Shown here: one piece after another, positions 10,120-27,103 of the stretch | Layout of the letters: each line of letters begins with the position of its first letter | How positions within the stretch are numbered: the stretch's first letter is position 1 | Assembly: GCA_020718905.1 (NCBI GenBank) | Contig: DYRD01000002.1 | Span: 1-39,946, forward strand | DNA length: 39,946 nt | Source of the DNA: Syntrophus aciditrophicus | GTDB lineage: Bacteria > Desulfobacterota > Syntrophia > Syntrophales > UBA8958 | Direction: 5' to 3' | Program-made: the position numbers and the translations under genes | Notes under the pieces: model-generated | Databases searched by the model: none | What the model saw: the letters and a program-made list of their open reading frames with translations, nothing else | Told to the model about the DNA's origin: nothing

Positions 10120-10857
10120 ATGGAAAAGCCGACAGGATCGGAAAAACGAGTAAAAACGGCCTTTATTCTCGGGGCGGGGCTGGGGACGCGCCTGATGCCG
10201 CTGACCCGGGAATGTCCCAAACCGCTCTTGCCCCTGCGGGGCCGTCCGATTATCACCTACGCCATGGACCATCTCAGGAAAGCGGGGATCGAGCGGTTTA
10301 TCATCAATACCCACCACCGTGCCGAGGTATATGGGCAAGTATTCCCGGGCCATGCATGGTGCGGCGTTCCGATCATATTCCGCCATGAGCCGGACCTCCT
10401 TGATACGGGGGGAGGATTGAAGAACATAGAAGAACTGCTCGATGACGGCGAGACCCTAATGGTCTACAACGGCGATATCCTGACTGATATTCCCCTCGCG
10501 GAGCTGGTGGACCATCATTTCCGGGCCGGGAAGGAGGCGAGCCTCGCCCTCCGGAGTTCTGGTGAGCCCCGGAATGTGAATCTTGATGCCGGAGGAGCCA
10601 TCTGCGATTTCCGCCGGGTCCTGGGCAGGCCCGGGGTGCGGGCCTGCCCTTTCACGGGGATTTACATCATCGAAAAAACACTCCTGAAAAGGATACGACG
10701 AGGGGTCAAACAGGATATCATCCCCGTATTCATAGACATGATCCGGGAGGAGCCGGGAGCCGTGGCGGGAATCGTGATCGACGCCGGGCAGTGGACCGAT
10801 ATCGGAACTCCGGAGAGCTACGCCGGGCTGAACGAAGCGGCATCCCCCTTACGATGA
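10120..10857 (+). CDS. MurU-like sugar-1-phosphate nucleotidyltransferase
   Basis: A 245-residue GT-A-fold nucleotidyltransferase that activates a sugar 1-phosphate with an NTP. The signature ILGAGLGTRLMPLTRECPKPLLP (about residues 16-38) gives the nucleotide-binding loop and catalytic lysine, LMVYNGDILTD supplies the metal-binding aspartate, and WTDIGTPESY is the typical C-terminal motif. Length and the adjoining kinase match MurU (MurNAc-1-phosphate uridylyltransferase) rather than the longer RmlA or GalU proteins. ATG 10120 follows AAGGAG at proper spacing. Its stop overlaps the kinase start (ATGA at 10854), so the two are translated together, as in the AmgK-MurU peptidoglycan recycling pair of Pseudomonas. 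Which sugar it uses cannot be told from sequence. Confidence 0.85.
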   Translation: MEKPTGSEKRVKTAFILGAGLGTRLMPLTRECPKPLLPLRGRPIITYAMDHLRKAGIERFIINTHHRAEVYGQVFPGHAWCGVPIIFRHEPDLLDTGGGLKNIEELLDDGETLMVYNGDILTDIPLAELVDHHFRAGKEASLALRSSGEPRNVNLDAGGAICDFRRVLGRPGVRACPFTGIYIIEKTLLKRIRRGVKQDIIPVFIDMIREEPGAVAGIVIDAGQWTDIGTPESYAGLNEAASPLR

Positions 10858-11882
10858 AGCTTATGGAAGACACATTTATCGCTTATGCCTGTACCATCCT
10901 CAATGTCGCGGAGGAAACGGCGGGACGAATGACGATCGAGGCGATTACGAAAGGCGGCTCGGACCGGTGCTTTTATCGCCTGTCGCTGCCAGATGGCAAA
11001 AGTTATCTGTTTATGGCCTATGGCCGCCACCAGGAGGAAAACGCCTACTGGGCGGACATTGCCGCTTTCCTTGCTGCCCTGGGGGTTTCCGTCCCGGCGG
11101 TTTACGGACCTGATCCGGAGCGGGGTTTCGTCCTCATGGAAGATCTCGGGGATCGGGAGCTCTGGTCCTACCGGCATGAACCCTGGGATGTCCGCCGCGA
11201 CCTGTACCGGAAGGTTCTGAAAAGAATCTCCCCCCTTCATGCCTTCGTTGGGTGTTCTCCCACCAAGGGAAAAAGGGGGGGGGCCGTAGCCATGTCACCC
11301 CCATTGCCCAAGACAATGAGGGGATATAACCGGGAACTCTACCGTTGGGAACACGAATATTTTCTCACGCAGTTTGTCGGGGACGTGTGCGGGATCACTC
11401 TTTCCGGGAGGGAAGGTGCTGTCCTGAAGGAGGAACTGGAGTCCCTGACTGGCCGGCTGCTGGTGACGGGGCCGCCTCTCGTCCATCGGGATCTTCAATC
11501 ACAGAATATCATGATCTGCAGGGGTGAGCCTGTTTTCATCGATTTTCAGGGCCTGCGCCCGGGGTCGCTTTTCTATGATCTCGGGTCCCTGCTGTGCGAC
11601 CCTTATGTCCCGCTTACGGCGGAGGAGCGGGAGGACCTCCTCCGCTATGCCTATGAGCTTCTGACCCTGGATATGGACTGGACCCGCTTCCGGGAAGGCT
11701 TCCTGGGCGGTTCCGCCCAGCGGCTCATGCAGGCCCTGGGAGCTTTTGGTTTTTTAGGGTTGAAGAAAGGGAAGGAAGGGTTTCTCACCCATATTCCCCG
11801 GGGAATTGAGAATCTGGGCAGTATGGCCGCCGCTTCCGGGCAGTTGCCCCATCTTTTGCAACTGGCGAGGAGATTGAAATGA
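10854..11882 (+). CDS. AmgK-like anomeric sugar kinase (aminoglycoside phosphotransferase fold)
   Basis: A 342-residue kinase of the APH fold. ATG 10854 overlaps the stop of the nucleotidyltransferase; upstream in-frame starts would lie inside that gene. Visible are [11 protein letters not shown] (glycine-rich loop), the ATP-binding hinge VLMEDLGD, the catalytic loop VHRDLQSQN (about 208-216) and the metal aspartate in FIDFQG. AmgK phosphorylates MurNAc and GlcNAc at C1, and MurU then makes the UDP-sugar; this gene pair fits that pathway. An unusual insert near residues 132-150 ([17 protein letters not shown]) is encoded by a stretch with a G9 run (11275-11283), and could be a low-complexity insertion or two compensating indels. 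Confidence 0.83.
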
Positions 11883-13345
11883 TTACCGTTGCTTTGTGCC
11901 GCAGCGACTATCGAGGGGCGGATCAAACCATTGAGCTCCTTAGCGCCTCGCCCCTTGTTGCCAGGATACTCGTCGTTCACGACGGCAATCCCCTGCCTGT
12001 CTGGCCGAAGTGTCAGCTAATCCGCGGTGATACCCTTGCCGCGGGATGGATTCTGGAGGCGGTCCTGAAAAAATCCCGCACTCGTTACCTCCTGATGATT
12101 ACGGGGGGAGCGGATATTGATCTTGGCCCGCGGACCCTGGCAAGACTCCTTGACGTCATGGGGACGACGGGAGCGGGAATGCTTTACAGCGACTATGAAG
12201 AAACGACGCCCGACGGCGCCCGCAAGGAGCGGCCCGTAAATGATTATCAATTGGGCAGTATCCGGGATGACTTTCATTTCGGCCCGGTACAATTATTTTC
12301 TACCCGTGCCGTCCGGCAGGCGCTCGCCGACAGCGGGCCCCTGCCGGTACTCAAATATGCCGCCCTGTATGATCTGCGCCTGAAGCTTTCCCTGCGTGCG
12401 CCCATTGTCCGACTTCCGGAGCGCCTTTACGGAACCTCGGTAATCCCGGAAAAGGGAAAGGGAGAAAAACATTTTGCCTATGTGGACCCCCGGAATCTGG
12501 CCTATCAGCAGGAGATGGAAATGGTTGCCTCAGAGCATCTGCGCCGCCTCGGGGCCTGGCTTGCACCATCATCCCGAAGATTGCCCGCCGATGGGGGGTC
12601 GTATCCCGTGGCGGCAAGCGTGGTAATCCCCGTCCGCAACCGGGAAAAAACCATTGCCGACGCCGTCCGTAGCGCCCTGGCCCAGGAGACGGATTTTGCC
12701 TTCAATGTCCTCGTGGTGGACAACCATTCCACCGACGCTACGGCTTCCGTCGTCTCGGAACGGGCACATAATTATCCTCCGGTGCGGCTCCTGGTCCCGG
12801 AGCGGCGGGATCTCGGCATCGGGGGCTGCTGGAACGAGGCCGTCTATTCTACTCATTGCGGTAAATATGCCGTTCAGCTCGATTCCGACGATCTCTACGG
12901 AGGTCCGAAGACCCTGCAACAGATAGTAGCTATGCTGGGGAGGGGACGCTGTGCCGCTGTCATCGGATCCTACTCCCTCGTGGACGGCAAGGGGGCGGAG
13001 ATACCCCCCGGCCTTGTGGACCATCGGGAATGGACGGACGGGAACGGTCGGAACAACGCCCTGCGGGTGAACGGTTTCGGCGCCCCCCGGGCTTTCCGGA
13101 CAGACATCCTCCGCCGCTCGGGCGGGTTTCCGAACGTGAGTTACGGAGAGGATTACGCCGCCTGCCTTAGAATATCAAGGGATTACCGTATCGGCCGGAT
13201 CTACGATAGCCTGTACCTGTGCCGGCGTTGGGAAGGCAACACCGACGCCGCCCTCTCCGTAGAGAGGATTAATGGGAACGACGCTTACAAAGACAGGCTC
13301 CGGAGCCTGGAGATCATGGCCAGACAAAAAATGACGGCTTCGTAA
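11879..13345 (+). CDS. Family 2 glycosyltransferase with an extra N-terminal domain
   Basis: A 488-residue protein whose ATG overlaps the kinase stop. Residues about 244-480 form a GT-A glycosyltransferase of family 2: [29 protein letters not shown], the DxD-type metal motif QLDSDD (about 332-337) and a [11 protein letters not shown] acceptor-side motif. The first 220 residues form a second, more divergent GT-A-like region (VHDGNPLPV, then [14 protein letters not shown] and MLYSDYEE). No signal peptide or membrane helix is seen, so it should be cytoplasmic or peripheral. The last four residues (MTAS) and the stop come from the dispersed repeat at 13333-13456, so the original C-terminus may have been different. 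Donor and acceptor are unknown; the context suggests a sugar activated by the two upstream enzymes. Confidence 0.85.
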
Positions 13346-13456
13346 AAAGTCCGGAGGCGATGTTGCGCCTTATCCTTCGTCACTGCGGCGTACGCCGAAT
13401 GCGCCTCATGATTCAAGATTTGCTGCCTTGCCTGCGGATATTTTTACGGAGCCGTC
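13333..13456 (+). repeat. Dispersed 124-bp repeat with terminal inverted repeats, copy 1
   Basis: The element starts GACGGCTTCGTAAAAAG and ends with the reverse complement of a near-identical sequence (TTTTTACGGAGCCGTC), giving imperfect terminal inverted repeats of about 17 bases. A second copy lies at 26971-27096 in the opposite orientation and shares the internal block at 13372-13394 exactly. It has no coding capacity, so it resembles a non-autonomous miniature element or REP-like repeat. It overlaps the end of the glycosyltransferase gene and supplies its stop codon. I recall similar sequences in Syntrophus-type genomes but cannot confirm that here. Confidence 0.75.
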
Positions 13457-13500
13457 GCTTATGACCGATTTCTCAACTTTTAAGGGTACATCAAACAAGA

Positions 13501-14535
13501 ATGAGGGGTGACGATTTGGAAACAGGGGATTATTTGCTAGCACCGGAGAGGATATGGAGCGAATATGACGGCGTTCCAGGGGGGATATCCCTACCCGCCA
13601 TGTGCGGGGAGCTTTTTTCTCAACAGATCTTTAACTGGCAGGAGTTCGCCGTCGCCCATATGGCTATGAAAGGGGCCTGGCTCCGGGAGCTGACCTCCGG
13701 GCCGCACACCCTCCTGGTCCAGTTCAATCAGGGCCGGACCATCAGCGCCACCGCCGCCCTTGGTGCGGAAACCGTCAGCAAACGTCCCTGTTTTCTCTGT
13801 GTCCACCATCTGCCGGCGGCCCAGAAGGCGGTCCTTTACCGCAAGAGCTTTCTCATTCTTGTCAATCCCTTCCCGATCTTTTCACCCCATTATACCGTCG
13901 TCAACGTTAACCACGAGCCCCAGGAACTCGCCGGACATCTCGGCGCCCTACTGGCCCTGTCCCATGACCTGGGACCGGCCTTCACGGTCTTTTACAATGG
14001 CCCCCGCTGTGGCGCTTCCGCCCCGGATCATCATCACTTTCAGGTCTGCCCGGCGGGAATGATCCCGGCCGAAAAGGCTTGGGAAGCAGCAGGAAGGGAT
14101 ATCCTGCCCATGGATCGGGAGGGCTTGTCCTTCGGCGTGCTGAGGTTGCCGGGGAGAATCTCCCTAGTCATGGAAGGAAGCGTCCCGGATGCCTTGGAGG
14201 CATTCCTGAGGCGGCTGATCGTGACGATGGGAGAGGTCATGGGCAGCGCGGAAGAGCCCATGCTCAATCTCATCTGTATGCAAAAAGATGGGAAGTTGCG
14301 GCTCCTCCTTTTCCCCCGCCGGAAACATCGCCCTGAAGCCTATTATCGGGAAGGGGAAAAAAGCGTCCTCGTAACCCCCGGGGCCGTGGAAATGGGCGGC
14401 TTGCTCATCACGATCCGGGAGGAGGATTTCCTCAAAATGACCCCTGTCCTTGCCGAGGAGATCTATGGAGATGTATCCCTGCCGCCGGAGCTGATCGAAG
14501 AAATCGTAAGACATGTACGGAGGGATCGGGCATGA
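13501..14535 (+). CDS. DUF4922 HIT-like nucleotidyltransferase/phosphorylase
   Basis: A 344-residue member of the DUF4922 family, related to the HIT superfamily enzymes galactose-1-phosphate uridylyltransferase, Ap4A phosphorylase and GDP-hexose phosphorylase. The active-site triad segment is DHHHFQVCP (about 176-184), preceded by an early CFLC cysteine pair (about 97-100) and by a domain containing FPIFSPHYTVVNVNHEPQ. ATG 13501 lacks a good ribosome-binding site; TTG 13516 has AGGGG 8 bases upstream and is a real alternative. The stop overlaps the ATG of the M15 peptidase. Such enzymes move a nucleotidyl group to or from a sugar phosphate, so it may complement the MurU-like enzyme. No specific reaction is established for the family as far as I know. 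Confidence 0.8.
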   Translation: MRGDDLETGDYLLAPERIWSEYDGVPGGISLPAMCGELFSQQIFNWQEFAVAHMAMKGAWLRELTSGPHTLLVQFNQGRTISATAALGAETVSKRPCFLCVHHLPAAQKAVLYRKSFLILVNPFPIFSPHYTVVNVNHEPQELAGHLGALLALSHDLGPAFTVFYNGPRCGASAPDHHHFQVCPAGMIPAEKAWEAAGRDILPMDREGLSFGVLRLPGRISLVMEGSVPDALEAFLRRLIVTMGEVMGSAEEPMLNLICMQKDGKLRLLLFPRRKHRPEAYYREGEKSVLVTPGAVEMGGLLITIREEDFLKMTPVLAEEIYGDVSLPPELIEEIVRHVRRDRA

Positions 14536-15104
14536 CACCGGGGCAACATGGCACCGCGCCCATTATGGACAGCCGGATGACTCTCCGGGAGGCCCTGGAA
14601 GGGACCGGGGCCCCCACCGACGTCGTGGGGGCGCTATGGTTGGAGGATGTCCGTTATTATTCCTTTGACGGGGTGCTCCACCAGGGGCAGTTGGTGGTTC
14701 ATAAGGATGTCCGGAATGATATAGGGGAGATTTTCCGGAGTATGGAAAGGTTGAGGTTTCCCGTCATAAGGCCGTTCCCATCGTTGCCTATGGCTGGTCG
14801 GACGATGCCTCCATGGCCGATGACAACACCTCCGCTTTCAACTACCGGAGAGTGGTGGGGACAAAAAGGCTCTCTCGTCACGCCTGCGGCCTGGCCGTGG
14901 ACATCAACCCCGTCCGGAATCCAAGTAGTCTATAACAGCGGCCGGATATCACCTCCGGGCGCTGTTTACCGGCCCGGCGACCCCGGCGTGCTGACGGCCG
15001 ATCACCCCGTCGTGGTGGAATTCCTCCGGAGGGGCTGGCAGTGGGGGGGCAACTTCAAGTCCATGAAGGACTATCATCACTTCGACAGGATCATGGCGAG
15101 GTAG
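14532..15104 (+). pseudogene. M15-family D-Ala-D-Ala/L-Ala-D-Glu peptidase, two compensating frameshifts
   Basis: Peptidoglycan-cleaving zinc peptidase of the M15 (VanY/CwlK-like) type, about 190 residues. The start ATG 14532 overlaps the DUF4922 stop and has ACGGAGG upstream. The first 75 residues are in frame. From about 14771 the true sequence continues one frame over as HKAVPIVAYGWSDDASM, then NYRRVV and the zinc motif SRHACGLAVDINP, and returns to the first frame near 14930 (YNSGRISPP, then the second zinc segment GWQWGG and DYHHFD). The first shift needs one extra C near CCCGTCATAAG, the second one base fewer near AGTAGTC. As the sequence stands, the central catalytic segment is replaced by a proline-rich stretch. 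No signal peptide is evident. It ends the sugar cluster and overlaps the convergent CYTH gene by 28 bp. Confidence 0.75.
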
Positions 15105-15592
15105 GTCCGGGGTTCGGACGCCCTAATTCCCAGTTTTTCTGCCAGGGCAAGGATTTCCTGTTCAATAAGTTCTTTGTTCTCCCCCATCTTTTCCAGTTCT
15201 ATAAAGCTTCCCAGTCCCAAGACGTCATCGAGACAGATTACGGTGTCCGCCAGATAGAAGACGGACCGTGTTTTTTCAACCCTGCCGACGGGACGGAAGC
15301 CCAATCTCTCCAATATGGAGGAAATCGTTACGTAATCACCGATCTCCGTTTCCGCTTCAAAGTGGATCTTGGCCGTTCCTGCCATCCTTGGTCCTTTGTA
15401 GGTAATGCGGCCTTGGCCGTTTGTCATCCGTAGGCGCAGGGCTTCGTTGGTCCGGCCAAAATCACGGACCGGATGTTGATAATAAAGATCCTTTTCCTGG
15501 AGGATCGGTCCCGCCATGGCCCCTACCTGTCTGAGGAGATCCTTCATGGCATGTGGATCGGTGAGGACCGCCTTGATTTCAATTTCGAGCAT
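15077..15592 (-). CDS. CYTH-domain protein (CyaB-type class IV adenylate cyclase or tripolyphosphatase)
   Basis: A 171-residue CYTH protein, which binds triphosphorylated substrates in a beta-barrel tunnel. The N-terminal metal motif ExExK appears as EIEIKA (residues 3-8), followed by ALRLR, ITYKGP and the acidic FIELEKMG. This arrangement is the CyaB/CYTH pattern, but enzyme type (adenylate cyclase, thiamine triphosphatase or inorganic tripolyphosphatase) cannot be decided from sequence. It is a single gene on the minus strand, ATG at 15592, convergent with the M15 gene. Confidence 0.87.
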   Translation of the reverse strand: MLEIEIKAVLTDPHAMKDLLRQVGAMAGPILQEKDLYYQHPVRDFGRTNEALRLRMTNGQGRITYKGPRMAGTAKIHFEAETEIGDYVTISSILERLGFRPVGRVEKTRSVFYLADTVICLDDVLGLGSFIELEKMGENKELIEQEILALAEKLGIRASEPRTYLAMILSK

Positions 15593-15773
15593 TGTTGGTT
15601 ACGGTCAGCGCCGCCTCCTGATTCAGTAACGCCGTTAATATGATTACTAATAAGAAATATGTCAGTAAAATTACACAGTCGCAATTAATTAGCAAGGGTT
15701 TTCAAGTACGGGGCAGTTGACAATCAACGCCGGCATCCTAATCTTAGATGAAAGTATTTATGGGAGAGAAACG

Positions 15774-16862
15774 ATGAAGAAAATATTCCGTTGCTTATTC
15801 CTTATCCTTATCGGCCTGGCGATCGGTTGCCAGAGCGCCAATGGCGATAAACAGGAGGTTAAAAAAGTTATGGAGACGAACAATGGTCAGGTTAAAACGG
15901 CTACCTTCGCCGCCGGCTGCTTCTGGTGTGCCGAGGCCGATTTCGAAAAGGTTCCCGGGGTCGTGAAGGTGATTTCCGGATACACGGGGGGAACGAAGGA
16001 CAAGCCGACCTATGAGGAGGTGTCGGCGGGGAAAACCGGCCATGTGGAGGCCGTTCAGGTCTATTACGACCCGGAAAAGATTACCTACGAGCAGCTTCTC
16101 GACGCCTTCTGGCGCCATGTAGATCCTACCGACGGCGGGGGACAGTTCGCAGACCGGGGTTCCCAATATCGCAGCGTCATCTTTTATCATGATGACGAGC
16201 AGCGACAGGCCGCCGAGAAGTCAAAGGAGTCCCTGAACAAATCCGGGCGGTTCAATAAGCCGGTGACGACGGAGATCCTCCCCCTTGGCAAGTTCTATGA
16301 GGCGGAGGCCTATCATCAGGACTACTATCGGCATAATCCGTTGCGCTACAAGTATTACCGGCATGGGTCCGGTCGCGATCGGTTCTTGGAGAAAGTCTGG
16401 GGGAATGTCCAGGCTCCCCTGCCGGCGGCGAAAAAACAAGGGTACTCTCAACCGGATAAGGAATCGCTGAAGAAGAAATTGACGCCCCTGCAATATGAGG
16501 TCACCCAGAAAGAAGGCACCGAGCCGCCCTACCGGAATGAGTATTGGGACAACAAGGGGGAAGGCATCTATGTTGATATCGTCTCCGGCGAACCCCTTTT
16601 CAGTTCCCTGGACAAATATGATTCCGGGACGGGATGGCCGACTTTTACCAGGCCCTTGGAGCCCGCTAATATCAGGGAAAAGGAAGACCGGAAACTTTTT
16701 ACGAGCCGTACGGAAGTCCGGAGCCGTCAGGGGAATTCTCATCTGGGACATGTTTTCCCTGATGGACCGAAACCTACGGGTCAGCGGTATTGCATGAATT
16801 CGGCGGCCCTGCTGAGGGAATTGACCGGCGCGGAGATAAAAAGGCGACCCCAAGTGGCATAG
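15774..16862 (+). CDS. msrAB: Bifunctional methionine sulfoxide reductase MsrA-MsrB, lipoprotein
   Basis: Fused repair enzyme that reduces S- and R-methionine sulfoxide in proteins. ATG 15774 (MKKIFRCL) follows GGGAGAG; the upstream in-frame TTG at 15717 lacks support. A lipoprotein signal ends in the lipobox LAIGC near residue 19, so the enzyme is probably anchored outside the cytoplasm. The MsrA part carries [18 protein letters not shown] (catalytic cysteine about residue 48), and the MsrB part carries [22 protein letters not shown] and the catalytic RYCMNSAAL (about 339). The two zinc-binding CxxC pairs of many MsrB proteins are absent, as in PilB-type fusions. A thiol donor for the periplasmic enzyme is not encoded nearby. 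It fits the oxidant-defence theme of the window. Confidence 0.93.
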
Positions 16863-26897: not shown

Positions 26898-26970
26898 AAG
26901 TTATTGCCGTTTCTCTTTCCTTCCGTTCTTAATGACAAACCCGCATAAAATTTTATAATTGGCCATAATC

Positions 26971-27096
26971 GCCGGCTTCGCAAAAAGATCTGCAGGCAAG
27001 GCGCGCAAATCATGAGGAATGAGGCGTGCTTGACGTACGCCGCAGTGACGAAGGATGCAACGCAACGCCGCATCCGGATATTTTTGAGGAGCCGTC
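26971..27096 (-). repeat. Dispersed 126-bp repeat with terminal inverted repeats, copy 2
   Basis: Reverse orientation relative to the copy at 13333-13456. It starts GCCGGCTTCGCAAAAAG and ends TTTTTGAGGAGCCGTC, the same terminal inverted repeats with a few changes. The block CGTACGCCGCAGTGACGAAG at 27034 onward is identical to the complement of the first copy. It lies in the gap between the aconitase and NlpC genes, does not interrupt a gene, and codes for nothing visible. The rest of 26898-26970 shows no feature. Confidence 0.75.
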
Positions 27097-27103
27097 AATA
27101 ATG

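Follow-up and report, generated by a model that had tools for sequence, protein, structure and literature searches.

We examined five adjacent genes in a stretch of 39,946 nucleotides from Syntrophus aciditrophicus (the window), which encode homologues of the amino-sugar enzymes MurU and AmgK, a two-domain glycosyltransferase (GT), a DUF4922 protein and an M15-family peptidase. The window lies on contig C248 of a 3.0 Mb metagenome-type assembly of 319 contigs that is 97.8% complete (G000). All five genes had been named between positions 10120 and 15104 in a preliminary description of the sequence, and all are present on the plus strand, together with one repeat element:

10120..10857, plus strand: MurU-like sugar-1-phosphate nucleotidyltransferase, 245 amino acids (Pfam NTP_transferase, 1.2e-22)
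10854..11882, plus strand: AmgK-like anomeric amino-sugar kinase with an APH fold, 342 amino acids (Pfam APH, 1.5e-17)
11879..13345, plus strand: tandem GT-A glycosyltransferase (GT), 488 amino acids (Pfam Glycos_transf_2, 3.5e-20, residues 247-396)
13330..13475, no strand assigned: dispersed repeat of about 140 bp with inverted-repeat ends, between GT and DUF4922 (genome similarity search)
13501..14535, plus strand: DUF4922 protein with an Apa2-like nucleotide phosphorylase fold, 344 amino acids (Pfam DUF4922, 8.4e-47)
14532..15104, plus strand: open reading frame (ORF) of an M15-family peptidase (Pfam Peptidase_M15_4, 5.2e-7, C-terminal end only)

Four overlapping or nearly overlapping junctions had been described for these genes. 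Three of them are indeed 4-nt ATGA overlaps, at 10854 (MurU/AmgK), 11879 (AmgK/GT) and 14532 (DUF4922/M15); the fourth, from GT to DUF4922, is a 155-nt gap holding the dispersed repeat. Across the genome this repeat has 29 matches of 70-94% identity, with shorter and secondary ones counted, and a second copy lies within the window itself at 26957-27097 on the minus strand. Its start falls inside the 3' end of the GT gene, whose last codons and stop come from the repeat. Because GT and DUF4922 abut without an insert in a genome of the same genus (L042), the repeat in the window is an insertion, as had been proposed.

The MurU-like protein scores 115.5 bits on the NCBIfam MurU model (NF045761, cut-off 250) and a similar 122.5 bits on the model for mannose-1-phosphate guanylyltransferase (NF052502, cut-off 440), and its homologues in the PDB include both guanosine diphosphate (GDP)-mannose pyrophosphorylase and MurU. 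The AmgK-like protein belongs to the Pfam APH family and reaches 68.8 bits on the NCBIfam AmgK model (NF045759, cut-off 550). Both proteins thus fall far under the equivalog cut-offs, and we therefore treat them as homologues for which we infer specificity towards N-acetylmuramic acid (MurNAc), the MurU-type function being assigned from gene context.

The DUF4922 protein is a clear member of PF16269 (159.2 bits against a gathering cut-off of 23.6) and has an additional, sub-threshold Pfam match to Ap4A_phos_N. Its structural model (predicted local distance difference test score, pLDDT, 93.7) is closest to Apa2, the yeast diadenosine tetraphosphate (Ap4A) phosphorylase (Z 22.9, root-mean-square deviation 3.4, 273 residues). 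Further structural matches are DUF4931 (Z 10.8), uridylyltransferases (about 10), and GalT and adenosine diphosphate (ADP)-glucose phosphorylase (about 9-10). Compared by sequence with solved structures the single protein gave no match; a profile built from 65 homologues was needed, and this found Apa2 at an E value of 1.5e-6, aligning HxHxQ with the motif of Apa2 altered by mutation in structure 4i5v. Invariant residues comprise a CxxC, two further histidines and HxHxQ, the last present in 65/65 homologues and with H179 of the window's protein as its second histidine. DUF4922 therefore combines the fold and the HxHxQ nucleophile motif of an Apa2-like nucleotide phosphorylase of the HIT superfamily, which supports the phosphorylase-like character that had been suggested for it, with phosphorolysis itself as the predicted activity. 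The resemblance to Apa2 extends over the whole chain, but at only about 15% identity, and DUF4922 differs in standing nearly always beside a GT, in recycling clusters. Other relatives of Apa2 are the plant GDP-L-galactose phosphorylase VTC2/GGP and animal GDPGP1, and DUF4922 is mentioned in the literature on plant GGP. No functional study of the GT–DUF4922 pair was found in the literature searched.

The GT consists of two GT-A domains, with a GT-A-like N-terminal half and a C-terminal half of family GT2. Alignment of 53 homologues shows the GT2 motifs DSDD, GED and RW of the C-terminal half, which answer to the family's DxD metal motif, catalytic ED and (Q/R)xxRW, to be invariant (53/53), and no conserved DxD was found in the N-terminal half. 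For the latter reason the protein probably has a single active transferase site, to judge from its sequence. The top Foldseek match of the GT model (pLDDT 92.6) is the Escherichia coli K4 chondroitin polymerase K4CP (2.3e-23), which likewise has tandem GT-A domains, and the C-terminal half matches the structures of GT2 enzymes at Z 20-25. Unlike K4CP, the window's GT has an N-terminal domain without a conserved DxD and a soluble recycling context instead of a role in polymer synthesis.

GT and DUF4922 form the constant unit of this locus, being adjacent or fused in nearly all genomes checked from the Desulfobacterota, Bacteroidota, Acidobacteriota, Ignavibacteria and Planctomycetes. The survey covered 158 DUF4922 loci: 52 in the window's order, where up to about 10 kb were read on each side of DUF4922 (less at contig ends), 26 elsewhere in the phylum, and 80 identified by scanning every genome, chiefly in Bacteroidota, Acidobacteriota, Ignavibacteria, Planctomycetes and Binatota. 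The prevalence of DUF4922 in Bacteroidota is known from these 80 best loci only, which are biased to the query's relatives. In 145 of the 158 loci GT neighbours DUF4922 on the same strand, and in ten the two are fused; the other neighbours are SpoIID (84), AmpG (60), an AmiA-like gene (48), M15 (32) and AmgK (28). Within the window's order the pairing holds in 51/52 loci, ten of them fused, with M15 nearby in 32, the AmiA-like gene (PF07313, formerly DUF1460) in 31, AmgK in 22, MurU in 21, SpoIID in 13 and an AmpG-like major facilitator superfamily transporter in nine. One family displays the full string SpoIID–AmpG–MurU–AmgK–LeuS–LptE–GT+DUF4922–M15–AmiA-like. The insertion of leuS and lptE between the AmgK gene and a mostly fused GT-DUF4922 was seen in one family (L052, L053, L055, L058, L060, L062, L071, L074 and L077).

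Where AmgK and DUF4922 occur in the same genome, they lie within 12 kb of each other in 24 of 48 cases, as against less than 1% expected from random placement in a genome of 3 Mb. A chance neighbourhood was rejected on the strength of this linkage and of the GT adjacency. In one complete genome (G036) the two genes are co-present though unlinked, with DUF4922 at 478 kb and AmgK at 824 kb.

Among the 80 loci of the all-genome scan, GT is present in 71, SpoIID in 57 and AmpG in 48, and in many loci outside the window's order SpoIID directly follows the GT-DUF4922 pair and is itself followed by AmpG. Neither MurU nor AmgK was found near DUF4922 in any of these 80 loci, a few of which come from the window's own phylum and are closely related to the query. 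The preliminary description had regarded a separation of DUF4922 from MurU and AmgK as telling against its reading. Such a separation is what we observe outside the window's phylum, yet the neighbours there are still recycling genes: Bacteroidota clusters add NamZ, a MurQ-like gene (SIS domain), a MurT-like gene, a BadF-type kinase and HGSNAT-like genes, and a muropeptide permease linked to MurNAc-processing enzymes, as expected of a peptidoglycan-recycling cluster, recurs across phyla. The gene group is thus very probably one of peptidoglycan recycling, and the amino-sugar direction proposed earlier is upheld by these neighbours (AmpG, SpoIID, AmiA-like, NamZ and MurK/MurQ-like) and by the phylogenetic profiles described below. 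What changes is the base of the system, which had been taken to be the MurU-AmgK pair. GT-DUF4922(-SpoIID-AmpG) is the core. Its downstream modules are interchangeable and number at least two, with AmgK-MurU in the window's phylum and NamZ/MurK/MurQ/MurT-like genes in this place in Bacteroidota. None of GT, DUF4922, SpoIID, AmgK and MurU has a hydrophobic N-terminus.

DUF4922 is present in 52 of the 100 genomes of the window's order that were used for phylogenetic profiles. AmgK-like genes occur in 57, in 48 of them together with DUF4922 (p=1e-14), and SpoIID of this type in 59, 47 of which have DUF4922; GT accompanies DUF4922 in 51. NagZ-type GH3 shows the opposite distribution, with 24 genomes, of which 0/24 contain DUF4922 (p=4e-10), none AmgK and one SpoIID. 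These p-values take no account of shared ancestry: the order's GH3 genomes fall into four families, and one of these, f6, shows both states, in separate genera. Full-length AnmK at the family cut-off was found in 0/100 genomes of the order. In the wider phylum (297 genomes), GH3 was detected in 4/36 genomes with DUF4922 versus 198/261 others, and three of these four matches are long ORFs of 669-833 amino acids, the fourth being a weak match. The window's own genome contains neither GH3 nor AnmK, and so has no sign of NagZ/AnmK-dependent recycling in a search that did not extend to other glucosaminidase families.

The closest described counterpart is found in Tannerella forsythia, whose co-transcribed operon Tanf_08345-08385 comprises xanthan lyase, gtf, gtf, lytB, ampG, ybbC and murTKQ (PMC5388701). 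Its AmpG was shown to import muropeptides, and AmpG and MurTKQ were studied but the two 'gtf' genes were not (PMC5388701). The DUF4922 clusters of Bacteroidota share this gene order, lytB corresponding to SpoIID and ybbC to NamZ. The cluster of Bacteroides ihuae (L195), for example, runs 'xanthan lyase'-like, metallophosphatase, GT, DUF4922, SpoIID, AmpG, NamZ and HGSNAT-like, and matches the Tannerella operon except for the inserted metallophosphatase gene. The second Tannerella 'gtf' may accordingly be placed as DUF4922, by position alone. A protein of about 1000 amino acids, apparently the 'xanthan lyase' of Tannerella, is encoded upstream of GT-DUF4922 in 31 loci of Bacteroidota type (e.g. 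L195:3473-6526 and L156:5375-8416); its sequence looks amidase-like to the eye, and Pfam gives a Golvesin C-terminal domain only. The window has AmgK-MurU where Tannerella has MurT-MurK-MurQ. Tannerella uses the disaccharide of N-acetylglucosamine (GlcNAc) and anhydroMurNAc yet has no AnmK, and its route to MurNAc has been described as unexplored (PMC7670621). The window also resembles the Pseudomonas-type AmgK-MurU route, in which a kinase and a nucleotidyltransferase lead towards uridine diphosphate (UDP)-MurNAc. Pseudomonas, however, has NagZ, AnmK and MupP ahead of AmgK, whereas the window's genome is without NagZ-type GH3 and AnmK and has GT, DUF4922 and a cytosolic SpoIID in addition.

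AmgK and MurK-type kinases are well established to use free MurNAc as their substrate (PMC7670621). In genomes that have this pathway but neither NagZ nor AnmK, another route is therefore needed for splitting GlcNAc–MurNAc and for opening anhydroMurNAc, and the co-inherited candidates for these two tasks are GT–DUF4922 and cytosolic SpoIID. The fusion of an Apa2-like phosphorylase to a UDP-sugar-type GT suggests that reverse transfer and phosphorolysis may be coupled. We tentatively propose, with confidence a little short of an even balance, a NagZ- and AnmK-independent branch of cytosolic peptidoglycan recycling in five steps. The proposal draws on the gene content, co-occurrence, folds and motifs given here, from which we infer all substrates of steps two to five. 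First, AmpG would bring in GlcNAc-(anhydro)MurNAc-peptides. Second, cytosolic AmiA-like and M15 hydrolases would trim the peptides. Third, the tandem GT would act in reverse and transfer the GlcNAc of the disaccharide to UDP; DUF4922 would then phosphorolyse the resulting UDP-GlcNAc via a nucleotidyl-histidine to GlcNAc-1-phosphate and UDP. UDP would cycle between the two, so that GT-DUF4922, fused in some families, would behave as a two-part disaccharide phosphorylase, converting disaccharide and phosphate to GlcNAc-1-phosphate and (anhydro)MurNAc. As estimated from textbook bond energies, this net phosphorolysis lies near equilibrium, like that of ordinary disaccharide phosphorylases. Fourth, the cytosolic SpoIID-type relative of lytic transglycosylases would open anhydroMurNAc to MurNAc. 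Fifth, the AmgK-like kinase and the MurU-like nucleotidyltransferase would convert MurNAc to UDP-MurNAc, a step whose place may be taken in Bacteroidota by MurK/MurQ-type catabolism.

The individual parts of this scheme differ in strength. GT and DUF4922 probably take over a step that is done elsewhere by standard recycling enzymes, in what is probably a widespread and little-noticed pathway. Whether their substrate is the GlcNAc-MurNAc disaccharide is an evenly balanced matter, and the combination of a reverse GT with phosphorolysis is possible but doubtful. About as speculative is the claim in its fullest form: that a reverse GT and a nucleotide-sugar phosphorylase with cycling UDP split GlcNAc-anhydroMurNAc and keep the bond energy as GlcNAc-1-phosphate, that SpoIID opens anhydroMurNAc without adenosine triphosphate, and that NagZ and AnmK are replaced in this way across several phyla, as a third type of recycling.

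Several observations weigh against the scheme. Bacteroides ihuae holds DUF4922 together with both AnmK and GH3, and the exclusion is therefore not universal; it is furthermore drawn from few lineages (four GH3 families). A one-for-one replacement of cytosolic NagZ was our first reading, and was weakened by the properties of GH3-positive genomes, whose GH3 is NagZ-like (192-195 bits, cut-off 207) but carries N-terminal export signals and which are without AmgK. For the same reasons, two alternative lifestyles may underlie the exclusion, instead of the swap of a cytosolic step. We also know of no citable precedent for a GT2 enzyme working physiologically in reverse on peptidoglycan. For some GH3 glucosaminidases a phosphorolytic activity has been claimed, and its generality has been disputed, in work cited in PMC6572805.

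The best-surviving alternative, still on the unlikely side, retains peptidoglycan recycling but runs GT forwards: UDP-N-acetylhexosamine would re-glycosylate imported or anhydro-muropeptides, or build a cytosolic glycan for SpoIID, and DUF4922 would tune or recover the sugar nucleotide. The invariant DSDD, GED and RW motifs are as expected of a forward enzyme, the nearest folds (K4CP, TarS and heparosan synthase) are those of forward UDP-GlcNAc/N-acetylgalactosamine enzymes, and SpoIID, as a lytic transglycosylase, would require a MurNAc-GlcNAc bond. It would be wasteful, however, for a fused partner to phosphorolyse the GT's own donor, and no polymer-export gene recurs beside GT-DUF4922. An unlikely third reading would make DUF4922 a GalT-like exchanger that passes a nucleotidyl group from a sugar nucleotide to MurNAc-1-phosphate or GlcNAc-1-phosphate, supplementing or replacing MurU. 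The absence of a nearby MurU from Bacteroidota clusters would fit this role, as would the structural matches to GalT and ADP-glucose phosphorylase (Z about 9-10) and the invariant CxxC, H and HxHxQ, which we take to be similar to GalT's zinc and catalytic residues; yet the Apa2 phosphorylase is much closer in structure (Z 22.9 versus about 10), and MurU-like genes are kept alongside DUF4922 in the window's order. That DUF4922 serves to break down Ap4A or some other signalling nucleotide, and is merely co-regulated with cell-wall recycling, as its top structural and sequence match to Ap4A phosphorylase and the sub-threshold Ap4A_phos_N match might suggest, is very unlikely given its near-inseparability from GT, including gene fusions for which a housekeeping nucleotide enzyme would have no need.

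The M15 gene of the window requires separate comment. The ORF reported for it is present but not intact: the segment at about 14768-14923, including the metal-binding stretch HACGLAVDINP, is out of frame, and the frame is restored afterwards by a second, compensating frameshift. In tblastn, codons 80-131 of the intact M15 from L042 align to the window at 92% identity, but in another reading frame. The gene is intact in the siblings L041, L042 and L044, while the metal-binding and catalytic residues of the window's copy do not fall within one frame. As no other decay is seen in M15, a dead gene and an error of sequencing or assembly are equally likely. The genome's single SpoIID of this type (contig C51:7360-8716, locus L239) is likewise split by a frameshift, and AmpG was seen as a 59-residue fragment at a contig end. 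Frameshifts in both M15 and SpoIID, members of one pathway, possibly indicate decay in this organism or else sequence error. M15 had been expected to act on the wall, a view that we do not retain; it has no evident signal peptide, which makes a cytosolic role, the trimming of imported peptides, more likely.

Downstream, a CYTH/CyaB-type gene (class IV adenylate cyclase family; 15077-15592, minus strand) is convergent with the M15 gene and overlaps its end. It is followed at 15717-16862 by an MsrA-MsrB-like methionine sulfoxide reductase fusion, with an N-terminus that appears lipoprotein-like from its sequence.

Overall, our study offers a testable pathway for DUF4922. This domain of unknown function is common among anaerobic Desulfobacterota as well as among Bacteroidota of the gut and the environment. 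The pathway bears on how users of GlcNAc-anhydroMurNAc that have no AnmK, such as Tannerella, obtain MurNAc. The recycling fragments of such bacteria matter, in turn, for immune sensing by the host and for intrinsic fosfomycin tolerance.

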